Below are positions 8,162 to 52,229 of a stretch of 64,000 nucleotides of DNA, piece after piece. Location of the stretch: the NCBI GenBank assembly GCA_947494145.1, contig CANLTZ010000009.1:62001-126000 (forward strand). The letters are read 5' to 3'. Numbering within the stretch: the first letter of the stretch is position 1; every line of letters begins with the position of its first letter. Made by a program: the position numbers and the translations under genes. Under the pieces are notes generated by a model. The model was not told where the DNA came from, ran no database searches, and saw only the letters and a program-made list of their open reading frames with translations. The stretch comes from an uncultured Jannaschia sp. GTDB taxonomy: Bacteria; Pseudomonadota; Alphaproteobacteria; Rhodobacterales; Rhodobacteraceae.

Positions 8162-8233
8162 AAGACGACTCCAGCCCGGTCGCCCGACCGTCCGCCGCGT
8201 GGGCCTGCCAAAATCGACGCATTTTCGATATTA

Positions 8234-8344
8234 CCGCGGGTCTCGAAAAACCTGAGACATCAGCTTTTCGAGAAACGGTGCAACATCAATACTATGGCAG
8301 GACGTTTTTCGGAAATACTGATCCAAGTTTTCCGAAAACCGCCT
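8234..8344 (-). mobile_element. 111-bp MITE-like element, copy A, TA-flanked
   Basis: A 111-bp non-coding element almost identical in layout and length to 51893-52003, in inverted orientation in the window. Its ends are imperfect inverted repeats (core GCGGTTyTCGAAAAACC), and it is flanked by TA at 8232-8233 and 8345-8346. That is the target duplication expected of IS630/Tc1-mariner-type transposition. Read on the minus strand, it begins inside the stop codon of the methyltransferase gene (TA from the target, A from the element). No transposase is present, so it would have to be moved in trans. Confidence 0.75.
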
Positions 8345-8895
8345 TAGCCACTCAGCCGGATGATGTATTGCTGGCCCATCACTTCCAGGGACGCTGCATC
8401 GCCCAATTTCTCGACGACCTTGGCGACGGCCGCCTTGACGGGCGTCCCCTCACCGTCATTCCAGTGGTAATCGTCGCCCGCGATCACCCCGCCCGGTCGC
8501 ACCTTCTTGAGGCTGAGCGCTAGGTCCAAGCTGACAAACGGCTCGTTGTGGTTGCCGTCGACATAGATCCAATCCAGCGACGCATCTTCCATTTCCAGCA
8601 AAGCATCCTGCGACGTGGAGCGATGCAGAACCACGCGGTCGTCACCCGAAAATTTCGCGGAGACGAGATCAAACATCTGCGGCATACGCTCCGCGTTTTT
8701 CTTGCGACCGAAGCTCGTATTGTTGAACCGTGGATCGTATTCCCACGGGTCGATCAAATGCAGCGTCTTTGGGGTGCAGACTTCGAGAATGACCTCGCTG
8801 AACTTTCCCTCCCAGACGCCGATTTCGGCGCCGATTCCGTTCTTGGGCAGCGCTTCCAACATGCGTCGCCGCGTTTCATCTCGTTTTCCTGCCAT
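8344..8895 (-). CDS. Class I SAM-dependent methyltransferase (Methyltransf_24 type)
   Basis: A 183-residue small-molecule or sugar methyltransferase. SAM-fold motifs: GAEIGVWEGKFSE (motif I, residues 22-34), LHLIDPWEYDP (acidic loop of motif II), LDWIYVDGNHNE (motif IV) and VRPGGVIAGDDYHW (motif V/VI). Closest relative in the window is the N-terminal half of the adjacent gene (8905-10452), which has the same motif series, so the two probably arose by duplication. It is last of a three-gene minus-strand operon with a 9-bp gap to the fusion gene and an AAGGGG ribosome site. Its stop codon is shared with the MITE-like element. Confidence 0.8.
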   Translation of the reverse strand: MAGKRDETRRRMLEALPKNGIGAEIGVWEGKFSEVILEVCTPKTLHLIDPWEYDPRFNNTSFGRKKNAERMPQMFDLVSAKFSGDDRVVLHRSTSQDALLEMEDASLDWIYVDGNHNEPFVSLDLALSLKKVRPGGVIAGDDYHWNDGEGTPVKAAVAKVVEKLGDAASLEVMGQQYIIRLSG

Positions 8896-48704: not shown

Positions 48705-51700
48705 ATGTCGAGCTTCGCACGCTTCTTCGTTTCCCGCCCTGTTTTTGCCATCGTCCTTTCGGTCTTGATCTTGCTGATCGGGGCTGTGTCCTATTTGCGG
48801 CTGCCCGTGGCCGCCTACCCAGAAGTAGCGCCGCCAACAATCCAGGTGACTGCGTCCTATCCCGGCGCCTCGGCGGAGACAGTGGCCGACACTGTCGCCA
48901 CGCCGTTGGAGCAAGAAATCAATGGCGTCGAAGGCATGCTCTACATGCTATCGCAATCGACGGGCGACGGTCGCATGGCGCTCACGATCACGTTCGAATT
49001 AGGGACTGACGTCGATGAAGCGCAGGTCCTGGTGCAGAACCGCGTTGCCATCGCCGAACCCCGCCTGCCCGAGGCCGTGCGGCGTCTAGGCGTCCAAACG
49101 CAGCAGAATTCCCCCTCGCTCCTGATGGTTGTGCACATGCTGTCACCGGATGCGAGCCGCGATCAGCTTTACATCTCGAACTACGCGTCCACCCAGATTA
49201 TCGACCGCCTGCTGCGTATCGACGGTGTGGGGCAGGCCACGGTGTTCGGCGAACGGGCCTATTCCATGCGCATCTGGCTGGACCCTGACCAGATCGCGGC
49301 GCGCAACCTGACCGCTGGCGAGGTGGTCGCAGCGCTGCGCGCCAACAACGTTCAGGTGGCGTCGGGCGCCATCAACCAACTGCCGGTCGAAGACCAAGCC
49401 GCGTTTCAACTGAACGTCGAAACCCAGGGGCGGCTGGTCGATCCCGAACAGTTCGAAGACATCGTCATCACTGCGGGGCCGGAAGGCCGTAAGGTCCGCG
49501 TGCGTGATATCGGGCGGGTGGAACTGGGCGCGCAGGATTATTCCACCAATGGCTATCTGAACGAAGACACAGCGTTACCCATCGGGATCTTCCAGCGGCC
49601 TGGTTCGAACGCGCTTGCGACTGCCGAGGCTGTTCGGGCGCTCATGGATGAGGCATCGGCCGAGTTTCCGCCGGGCTTGGAATATACCATCGTCTACAAC
49701 CCAACCGAGTTCATCGAGGAATCCGTCGATGCCGTGATCGTCACCATCGAAGAAGCCGTCCTTCTGGTGGTTCTTGTCGTATTGGTCTTCCTGCAGTCGC
49801 TTCGGGCGTCGATCATCCCGATCCTCGCCATTCCCGTCTCTCTCATCGGCACCTTTGCGGTGATGAACGCGGTGGGCTTCTCGCTCAACAACCTGACGCT
49901 TTTCGGATTGGTCTTGGCCATCGGGATTGTGGTCGACGATGCCATCGTCGTGGTCGAAAACGTGGAGCGATACATCGAAGAGGGCATGTCGCCCTTCGAT
50001 GCCGCTTGCAAAACCATGGGCGAGGTGTCGGGCGCGCTCGTTTCCATCGGCCTCGTTCTTATCGCCGTCTTCATCCCGGCGGCTTTCATCGAAGGGATCA
50101 CCGGCCAATTCATGCGCCAATTCGCGATCACCATTGCGGCGGCGACCTCCATCTCCGTGTTCATGTCGCTTACACTGTCCCCGGCTTTGTCCGCGCTTCT
50201 GCTGAAGTCCAAGGCTGATAAGGAGCGGGCACCGCGCGGGTTTGGCAAGATCATCCACGCGCTGACTTTGCCACTGCGGAAGGCAGCGGACGGGTTCAAC
50301 TGGGCGTTCGACAAGCTTGCGAGCGGCTATGCGGCCCTGATCGGCTTTCTGATCCGCGTCGCGCCTCTTACCTTGTTGGTTTATGTCGGTTTGATGGGTT
50401 TGGCTGGCTTCCAGTTCAACCGCGCGCCGTCCGGCTTCATCCCCGACCAAGACCAAGGCTATCTGATTGCGGTTGTGCAATTGCCTGCGGGCGCGTCGCT
50501 TTCCAGAACCGATGCCGTGATCCGCGAGGCAAGCGATCTGTTCCTACAGATGGAAGGCGTATCCGACACCGTAGCCTTCGCGGGCCTTGATGGCGCGACC
50601 TTCACCAACGCGCCAAATGCAGGCGCGATCTTCGTGGTCACCGACCCGTTCGAAGACCGTGTGCCCGCAGGCCTGACCAATGAGGTTCTGATCGGCGAGG
50701 CGTTCGGCCATCTTGCCAGCATCACCGACGCCAATGCTTTCGTCATCGCGCCGCCCCCGATCCAAGGGATCGGCAATGCCGGCGGCTGGGAACTGTATGT
50801 CCAAGACCGCCGCGGCCGCGGCCTGGCAGCGTTGGAAGACAGCGTGGGCGAGGCCATCGGTCGCGCCAACGCCACGGACGGTCTTGCTGCCGTCTTCACC
50901 CTGTTCAACACGGCGACGCCCAAGCTCTTTGCTAATATCGACCGCGTCCGGGCCGAGGAACTCGGCGTGCCGCCGGATCGCGTTTTCGAGGCGTTACAAG
51001 TCTATCTGGGCTCGGCTTTCGTAAACGACTTCAACTTCCTGGGGCGTACCTTCCGGGTCACGGCCCAAGCCGATGGTGAGTTCCGGGACAGCCCCGAAGA
51101 TATCCTGGACTTGCGGACCCGCTCTGACAGTGGCGGCATGGTGCCCTTGGGGTCCATCGCGACGTTGGAGCAGGAAACGGGCGCCTTCCGCGTTGCGCGC
51201 TACAACCTCTATCCGTCCGCGTCTGTCCAAGGGGCAACCGCGCCGGGCACCTCCACGGGCGAAGCCATTGCGATGATGGAGGCGCTTTTGGGCGAAACCC
51301 TCCCCGACGGGTTCGGTTACGAATGGACGGGCCTTGCGTTGCAGGAAAAGCTTGCGGGCAACACCGCGATCTATGCCTTCGCGCTGGCCGTCGTCTTCGT
51401 ATTCCTTCTGCTGGCGGCGCAATATGAAAGCTGGTTTCTGCCCTTCGCTGTCATCCTGATCGTGCCCATGTGCCTTTTGGCGGGCATCACAGGCGTCCTG
51501 ATCCGCGGCTTCGACAACAACATCCTCACCCAGATTGGCTTTGTGGTCCTTGTGGGGTTGGCGTCGAAGAACGCCATCCTAATTGTCGAATTCGCGATCC
51601 AAGCAAAAGATCGCGGCATGTCCCGTGTCGAGGCCGCGGTCGAAGCCGCGCGGCTGCGCCTGCGCCCAATCCTGATGACCTCACTCGCTTTCATCTTGGG

Positions 51701-51893
51701 CGTCGTGCCTTTGGTGATCGCGGAAGGCGCGGGCTCAGAGATGCGGCAATCGCTGGGCACCGCCGTCTTTTCGGGGATGCTGGGCGTCACGGTCTTTGGC
51801 CTGCTCTTCACGCCGGTCTTCTTTGTCACATTCGATTGGCTAGCCGAAAAGGCCGGTGTGCGCGGCCCTACGACAGAGGCGGCGAAGACCTAA
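48705..51893 (+). CDS. RND multidrug efflux transporter, HAE1 (AcrB/MexB) family
   Basis: A 1062-residue inner-membrane proton-driven exporter. Opening FFVSRPVFAIVLSVLILLIGAVSYLRLPVAAYPEVAPPTI, SYPGASAETVADTVATPLE, TM4 acidic pair in GIVVDDAIVVVENVERYIEE and the LVGLASKNAILIVEFA motif are all intact, as is the twofold 6-TM layout with large periplasmic loops. HAE1 type, so drugs, bile-salt-like compounds or solvents rather than metals. The TAA stop is formed partly by the first base of the MITE-like element that follows. Confidence 0.93.
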   Translation: MSSFARFFVSRPVFAIVLSVLILLIGAVSYLRLPVAAYPEVAPPTIQVTASYPGASAETVADTVATPLEQEINGVEGMLYMLSQSTGDGRMALTITFELGTDVDEAQVLVQNRVAIAEPRLPEAVRRLGVQTQQNSPSLLMVVHMLSPDASRDQLYISNYASTQIIDRLLRIDGVGQATVFGERAYSMRIWLDPDQIAARNLTAGEVVAALRANNVQVASGAINQLPVEDQAAFQLNVETQGRLVDPEQFEDIVITAGPEGRKVRVRDIGRVELGAQDYSTNGYLNEDTALPIGIFQRPGSNALATAEAVRALMDEASAEFPPGLEYTIVYNPTEFIEESVDAVIVTIEEAVLLVVLVVLVFLQSLRASIIPILAIPVSLIGTFAVMNAVGFSLNNLTLFGLVLAIGIVVDDAIVVVENVERYIEEGMSPFDAACKTMGEVSGALVSIGLVLIAVFIPAAFIEGITGQFMRQFAITIAAATSISVFMSLTLSPALSALLLKSKADKERAPRGFGKIIHALTLPLRKAADGFNWAFDKLASGYAALIGFLIRVAPLTLLVYVGLMGLAGFQFNRAPSGFIPDQDQGYLIAVVQLPAGASLSRTDAVIREASDLFLQMEGVSDTVAFAGLDGATFTNAPNAGAIFVVTDPFEDRVPAGLTNEVLIGEAFGHLASITDANAFVIAPPPIQGIGNAGGWELYVQDRRGRGLAALEDSVGEAIGRANATDGLAAVFTLFNTATPKLFANIDRVRAEELGVPPDRVFEALQVYLGSAFVNDFNFLGRTFRVTAQADGEFRDSPEDILDLRTRSDSGGMVPLGSIATLEQETGAFRVARYNLYPSASVQGATAPGTSTGEAIAMMEALLGETLPDGFGYEWTGLALQEKLAGNTAIYAFALAVVFVFLLLAAQYESWFLPFAVILIVPMCLLAGITGVLIRGFDNNILTQIGFVVLVGLASKNAILIVEFAIQAKDRGMSRVEAAVEAARLRLRPILMTSLAFILGVVPLVIAEGAGSEMRQSLGTAVFSGMLGVTVFGLLFTPVFFVTFDWLAEKAGVRGPTTEAAKT

Positions 51894-52003
51894 AGCGGTT
51901 TTCGAAAAACCTGAATCAGTATTTTCGAAAAACGTCCCGACATCGCATTGACGTTGCACCGTTTCACGAAAAGCTGATGGCTCAGGTTTTTCGAGAACCG
52001 CTC
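51893..52003 (+). mobile_element. 111-bp MITE-like element, copy B, TA-flanked
   Basis: Same length and structure as 8234-8344. Terminal inverted repeats of about 22 bases (core GCGGTTyTCGAAAAACC) and flanking TA at 51891-51892 and 52004-52005. The first TA plus the first base of the element forms the TAA stop of the RND pump; sequence after the second TA reads G, so the pre-insertion stop was probably TAG. The long arms can also fold as a hairpin and may terminate pump transcription. Confidence 0.75.
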
Positions 52004-52229
52004 TAGGTCAGCCTATCTTGCGCAAAGGCACGCATGCCGCATCGTCAACGGACGGTGTGGCGGGTAAATCAGCGCGGTTCTGGAATTCGTCGGGGCCCAT
52101 TGCTTTTGCTTCAACCCGAGACGGTCCCGGTGCGGAGCAATCGCATGCAGTTTTCCGCTGCCAGGCCACTTTACCTGGGCTTGGCCGAAGAAGCGGATTA
52201 ACAGGCGAACCAACTCGACCACGAGGCCG

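Follow-up and report, generated by a model that had tools for sequence, protein, structure and literature searches.

A 111-bp repeat of an uncultured Jannaschia as a probable non-autonomous IS630-type element with fold-back ends

Two copies in the window and their junctions

The 64,000-nucleotide stretch analysed here (the window), from contig CANLTZ010000009.1 of an uncultured Jannaschia sp., contains two copies of a 111-bp element that is probably a non-autonomous mobile element of the IS630 type. Copy 1 (AAGCGG...CCGCTC) occupies 51893..52003 on the + strand, and copy 2, which is diverged from it (88.8% identity over 107 bp), occupies 8234..8344 on the − strand. Each adjoins a gene whose stop codon overlaps the insertion: an AcrB/AcrD/AcrF-type transporter gene (48705..51893, + strand) for copy 1 and a Methyltransf_24 gene (8344..8895, − strand) for copy 2. 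The left TA of the duplicated target at copy 1 (51891..51892, + strand) forms the first two bases of the TAA stop codon of the AcrB-type gene, and the right TA (52004..52005, + strand) is followed by G, giving CTA...TAG. At copy 2, read in the orientation of the element, the left TA (8345..8346, − strand) lies within the stop codon of the Methyltransf_24 gene and the right TA is at 8232..8233 (− strand). A sequence-only reading of the window had reported both 111-bp segments, their gapless end-to-end alignment in opposite orientation and their inverted ends with TA on either side, and all of this was confirmed. Its statement that the element lacks coding potential is essentially correct, except that one frame runs open across copy 1 (open reading frame 51470-52006). 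That frame continues an open reading frame overlapping the AcrB-type gene.

A pattern describing the element ends, with at most three mismatches, matches the window four times, at precisely the four ends of the two copies; shuffled windows give a mean of 0.10 matches, and none of 100 reaches four. By homology with the family described below, copy 1 has a left arm region (51895..51934, + strand) composed of an outer arm, a loop containing GAATC (a GANTC site; 51913-51917, + strand) and an inner arm, and a right arm region (51960..52002, + strand) composed of an inner arm, a loop and an outer arm. These regions reflect structure at the level of the family; folded as a single sequence, copy 1 forms one long stem, unlike the arm regions assigned by homology.

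Copies, target sites and spread

The host genome (G000; 4.91 Mb in 53 contigs, where G, L and C label genomes, fetched loci and contigs) holds many further copies, found by DNA search, end pattern and profile alike, as the sequence-only reading had proposed to check. The DNA search gave 108 first-look candidates, and the 40 that were scored yielded 77 matches because most copies also match their own reverse strand. The end pattern, with at most two mismatches, occurs 78 times forward and 74 times in reverse, compared with 1 + 0 for the reversed-pattern control. A profile search of the fetched host loci, which sample the genome, returned 74 matches, of which 57 are near-full-length (at least 96 profile positions and at least 90 bits); the other 17 are partial or diverged, look like older insertions and were dropped. 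The 57 include identical groups of seven, two and two, and 30 of them have a partner at 97% identity or more; some of the amplification is therefore recent. Three copies in alternating orientation lie within 810 bp at G000:C10:90652-91461 (L009). Distinct from the element is another host palindrome, 116 bp long, which has a long stem and IS630-like TAGAGCG ends (G000:C2:240483-240598; L311).

Host junctions follow the form YTA/AAGCGG...CCGCTN/TAR, where the slashes mark the element boundaries, with TA on both sides in 46 of the 57 copies (left, 49; right, 54). Targets were rebuilt for the 42 of these copies that have long flanks and TA on both sides: CTAG 24, TTAG 10, CTAA 4, TTAA 2, CTAT 1 and ATAG 1. 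YTAR thus accounts for 40/42 and CTAG for 24/42, against 492 and 142 of 4211 NTAN sites in the fetched host loci, a background whose loci partly overlap each other and include element copies. Insertion prefers CTAG.

Duplication of the TA is seen in three settings. The copy at G000:C9:148717-148827 (L031, 1837-1947) interrupts an IS630-type transposase gene, and when one TA is counted once the codons continue as in uninterrupted relatives; this was read by eye, automatic alignments being irregular there. A second copy, at C15:28768, is nested at a CTAG inside an older copy (also read by eye). The third setting is the stop codon of putA in A. crassostreae. It is filled by a TA...TA element of 115 bp in strains S204 and S056, S128 and S202 have exactly 113 bp (111 plus TA) less and a single TA, and the site is likewise empty in S212. 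Among eight records in the hit table, two are filled, five are shorter by 113 bp and one by 114 bp, and the sequences of five of the eight were read directly. An empty site with a single TA, which the sequence-only reading had suggested looking for, is therefore found in strains of a relative but not for copy 1: 1.3 kb around it, compared with 20 genomes of the same genus, gave short, diverged matches only, as did 1.7 kb around another host copy.

The 111-bp sequence itself matches none of 19 other genomes of the genus and, weakly, five others of 394 in the family; its exact 26-base left-end pattern occurs in one Roseovarius metagenome-assembled genome (MAG). These matches outside the host are diverged cousins of the element. 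At E<=0.01 a sequence-only profile built from 10 copies detects the family in 45 of 394 genomes and 44 of 393 genera, the host among them. Of the 45 genomes, 38 reach E<=0.001, and, the E-values being per genome, about four could be chance. At most nine candidates per genome were scored, and copy counts are floors. Across the class this profile (R1) matches two genomes among 385, namely the host and another member of its family, under strict filters that can miss distant forms. The window element matched no plasmid, and a phage search with the element of one relative gave no matches.

Six of 317 alphaproteobacterial genomes contain a looser pattern (TA[A/G]AGCG, GANTC at base 23 and a CGCTYTA end, 94-124 bases in all): the host, plus five that belong to other families. 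The control matched once, in G629. Predicted folds in the five genomes from other families show two arms in G032, G461 and G674 and a long outer stem in G470 and G596. In G470 a repeat of 104-107 bp is present seven times (L307, L313, L315-L317, L319, L321); its ends are of the TAGAGCG type, and a GAATC lies at base 23. Another group, a 101-107-bp sub-class (L169, L170, L173, L176, L177, L178, L179, L237-L239), has similar outer ends and a different core (about CTAACGCTGCCTGAAATCAAAGATTTCAACGCGTTAGG); two of its members that were folded (L044, L049) form one nested stem.

Two side-by-side hairpins

The structure of the family was derived from a plain MAFFT alignment, A3, of 47 elements from 20 genomes, comprising 43 of 80 copies from relatives, three host copies and the MAG copy. 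A3 omits partial, single-hairpin and 105-bp forms, near-duplicates and some diverged copies and so leans towards tidy elements. RNAalifold predicts two side-by-side hairpins from it, with 24 pairs, 23 of which show double changes. In this model 90.3% of cells are paired and 208 are compensatory, compared with 62.7 (standard deviation 5.7) in shuffles, none of 500 of which reaches 208; sliding the structure out of register leaves 36-50% paired. A less selected alignment of 80 rows, containing all 76 relatives' copies of at least 100 nt, gives 85.9% paired and 300 compensatory cells, against a shuffle mean of 100.9 and a highest value of 120 in 200 shuffles. The shuffles ignore relatedness, so the slid controls weigh more. 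One long hairpin, in which the outer ends and the inner arms pair, was rejected as the family structure on its worse fit: 74.2% paired with 112 compensatory cells on A3, and 71.5% with 180 (shuffle mean 104.0) on the less selected set. What the family conserves is a pair of adjacent hairpins with a linker between them, and 58 of the 76 relatives' copies adopt this shape when folded as single RNA sequences.

Arms match within each hairpin, and the two outer ends diverge from each other past about 12 bases. This pattern would also arise passively if template switching between nearby inverted arms kept them alike, in which case the covariation would be silent on selection; nearer arms should convert more often, and solo-hairpin forms look like slippage products. 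The two-arm elements with other stems in other families are more easily explained by a need for the arms, or by repeated folding back of insertion sequence (IS) ends. We put the passive explanation at slightly under even odds, and it is compatible with an IS630-moved element.

The single-hairpin forms are about 46-50 bp long (L047, L193 and G000:C2:239408-239457, L080). They have element-like sequence at both ends and fit a deletion between the left inner arm and the right outer arm, which are direct repeats of each other. Their existence, and two inverted hairpins kept by compensatory change, recall REPIN/BIME elements, which consist of two inverted hairpins, reach high copy number and, as REPINs, are moved by RAYT Y1 transposases and not known to duplicate their target. 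An HUH/Y1 element like REPIN or IS200/IS605, whose hairpins would move as single-stranded DNA, is nevertheless highly improbable here: the element duplicates TA and has inverted-repeat ends like those of DDE-type IS630 elements, both unlike REPIN/BIME, and its preferred target is palindromic (CTAG).

Strong covariation in two hairpins would equally be expected of a domesticated structured RNA or terminator, whose hairpins, placed at gene ends, would serve mRNA 3' processing or termination, a function that would explain the conserved folding. Both window copies overlap stop codons, and relatives' copies fall in a stop codon in 17/48 cases against 20/153 control YTAR sites, a modest excess. A special affinity for stop codons is unsupported in the host, where the figures are 4/42 copies and 19/162 control sites; all these counts come from a crude gene caller, which classed window copy 2 as inside a gene. 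Rfam 15 places no family at gathering score on the element in seven sources (the window and six relatives' loci). With E up to 0.5, among 20 loci, a sub-threshold cspA alignment enters the L163 element (57.8 bits; gathering score 78). Identical copies, the nested copy and the strain polymorphism show transposition, and we regard the RNA or terminator function as unlikely, although the element may have a side effect on RNA. Caution is warranted when structured RNAs are called from covariation of this sort, as a mobile DNA element can produce it too.

IS630 ends and a candidate mover

IS630 elements of 1054-1064 bp in relatives have ends that match those of the short element, with the same left/right asymmetry. 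Two such elements were found in 20 element-bearing genomes: L244 (1054 bp, G084) and L242 (1057 bp, G362), the latter with 11 matches of equal score in its genome. The L244 transposase matches NF033545 (IS630 family) with 131.8 bits and DDE_3 with 108.3 bits, and the G084 transposase has coordinates identical to those on the Octadecabacter sp. SW4 plasmid NZ_CP042820.1. Matches to the L244 transposase occur in 95 of the 394 family genomes, host included. Twelve IS with both ends placed (L242, L244, L269-L273, L275, L276, L278, L279, L285) begin with TAAAG, followed by TTGAATC/CCTGAATC or a variant, and have right ends containing CCTGAGACATA or a variant. Nine others are TAGAG-ended (L031, L105, L108, L286-L289, L292, L297), six of which (L286-L289, L292, L297) are 50-58% identical to L244; L281 has TATAG/TAGAG ends. 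These lists cover the fetched loci whose ends could be placed with confidence. A search for the IS630 transposase in the 4-Mb genome G219 (L275) gave 117 first-look candidates, eight of them scored, which may reflect a large expansion of the IS; L275, like L242, is multi-copy.

The right end of the IS includes the last codons of the transposase gene. Of the 47 A3 elements, 34 are flanked by TA on either side. Comparing these with 20 IS gave 52/58 bases as the highest end match (L188 and L220 against L244), and the proper orientation beat the swapped one in 25/34 elements. The IS630-type transposase with matching ends that the sequence-only reading had suggested seeking is therefore present in relatives, but no intact cognate (ends AGCGGTTTTCGAAAAACCTGA) was found in the host. 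The interrupted IS630 of the host (L031) was considered as the mover and set aside, its own ends (TAGAGCGCGTCTGG) differing from those of the element.

At 111 bp, multi-copy and without its own transposase, the element fits the description of a miniature inverted-repeat transposable element (MITE). We consider each segment to be a copy of a non-autonomous IS630-type MITE with fold-back ends, with a probability of about 0.9, and a way of working like that of an IS630-moved MITE is well supported; many copies, TA duplication in a relative and matching IS630 ends in relatives bear out the sequence-only reading on this point. The outer ends would derive from the IS630 clade with TAAAGCG-type ends that they resemble, the left end carrying CCTGAATC and the right end corresponding to the final transposase codons together with the terminal repeat. 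Supplied in trans, a transposase of that clade would cleave the ends and integrate the element at a TA, with CTAG preferred and the TA duplicated. Each end also possesses an inner copy of itself in inverted orientation, which gives the family its two hairpins and linker, an arrangement also published for the CcrM-associated intergenic repeats (CIR). The copies, the TA duplication, the target preference, the resemblance of the ends to IS630 and the family-wide two-hairpin covariation are observed; we infer the part of this transposase clade in the movement, a fold-back origin for the inner arms and the reason why the arms are kept.

Several observations weigh against this interpretation. Beyond the missing intact cognate, just two host sequences match DDE_3, of which one is broken by an element copy and the other has decayed. 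In 20 element-bearing genomes, a DDE_3 search found matches in eight and none in 12, among the latter G381, which has several near-identical element copies; likewise the L244 transposase has a match in 18 of the 45 element-bearing genomes and none in 27. The best IS end matches of the window copies are only 40/58 and 38/58, and the swapped orientation is equal or better in 9/34 elements. TA is missing on a side in 11/57 host copies, one of them for lack of flank at a contig end. As single RNA sequences, 56/57 host copies fold into one long stem and only one into two arms, and 18/76 relatives' copies also form one stem; both folds seem open to the host sub-family because its four arms are so alike. 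Finally, folding the ends of five IS revealed no inner arms, and the element is therefore not a simple internal deletion.

GANTC sites and known repeat families

The left loop keeps GANTC in 43/57 host copies, 49/80 relatives' copies and 26/47 elements of A3. The site is no more conserved than adjacent loop bases, and selection on it in the short element is unsupported: its N and T positions in A3 vary about alike (majority base 32/47 and 33/47). The 20 IS630 with placed ends have, per element, 2.7 GANTC sites in their left 80 bases, compared with a density of 0.04 per 80 bases over the middle part and 0.05 sites in the right 80. In 19 of 20 a site begins at base 23, its central base being A, T or G; eight other motifs of similar form reach at most 0.6 in the left 80 bases. 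All 20 belong to this bacterial family, and two of them, L286 and L105, agree in their first 75 bases and are not independent of each other. In other alphaproteobacteria, ISRm2011-2 of S. meliloti has GANTC at 23, 36 and 59, an Azospirillum IS630 at 23 and 54, a Komagataeibacter IS630 at 35 and 58, and a Microvirga IS630 with weakly placed ends at 19; two further IS630 with unplaced ends have no left GANTC. Six IS630 from cyanobacteria, Deinococcus, Thauera and Psychrobacter, several with ambiguous ends, have one left-end GANTC (Deinococcus, ends unplaced) and 14 elsewhere. The left-end cluster of IS630 is the likely source of the GANTC in the element.

Dam methylation of GATC is known to control IS10 through its methylation state. 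By analogy, CcrM might tie alphaproteobacterial IS630, and through them CIR-type repeats, to the cell cycle, a tentative proposal to which we give somewhat less than an even chance. The methylation left by the replication fork would set transposase expression or end activity via the left-end GANTC cluster, and the first of its sites, inherited together with the IS end, would account for the GANTC that was pointed out in CIR repeats in 2003. CcrM methylates GANTC, according to the CIR review (PMC2229807).

Literature titles for Rhodobacterales (Rhodobacteraceae, Roseobacter, Rhodobacter) revealed no miniature inverted-repeat element of this kind. The closest transposase-bearing elements are the IS630 of the family and ISRm2011-2 of Sinorhizobium meliloti, which share TA[A/G]AGC in nearly all placed ends and the left-end GANTC at base 23 (19/20 of the family IS630) and differ in carrying a transposase gene (about 1,056 bp). 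The Correia/NEMIS repeats of Neisseria, as described in two sources (PMC2229807, PMC10969869), are about 107 or 155 bp long, with TA ends, target duplication and RNA stem-loops. Compared by description and not by sequence, they resemble the element in size, TA ends and target duplication, and differ in their 24-bp terminal repeat, single stem and host. RUP of Streptococcus pneumoniae (IS630-Spn1) is described in PMC2229807 as a 107-bp repeat in 108 copies with IS630-like ends, a TA target and insertions into IS genes. By description it too is a short multi-copy element with IS630-like ends and a TA target that inserts into an IS gene, as the element does in L031. RUP differs in its phylum, its 9-bp terminal repeat and the single stem formed by 5'-3' end pairing, which the review ascribes to non-CIR repeats, and no functional DNA motif is reported for it there.

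The sequence-only reading could name no described family, and it described long terminal inverted repeats. At the level of the family the structure is two hairpins and not one long inverted repeat, and its anatomy is shared with the CIR repeats of Caulobacter, Brucella and other alphaproteobacteria. As described in PMC2229807, these are about 110 bp long and consist of two hairpin arms joined by a linker, with TA termini and a GANTC site that lies in or at the loop of one arm; they are not found intragenically, have stops in all six frames, and their mobility mechanism is called unascertained. The element is likened to them by this anatomy and not by the sequences of CIR1-CIR4: it is about 110 bp long, has two arms and a linker at the level of the family, an alphaproteobacterial host, GANTC in the left loop and TA at both termini (46/57 host copies, and in relatives too). 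Unlike CIR, one of its copies lies inside a transposase gene, one frame is open through it and its host sub-family is predicted to form one long stem. It goes beyond the CIR description in showing TA duplication and IS630-like ends. The element thereby connects the two-arm, GANTC-bearing CIR repeats with IS630 transposons, which could supply ends, TA target and GANTC alike. It yields a family in some forty of 394 genomes, a candidate mover, strains with filled and empty sites, and a testable link between DNA methylation and transposition.
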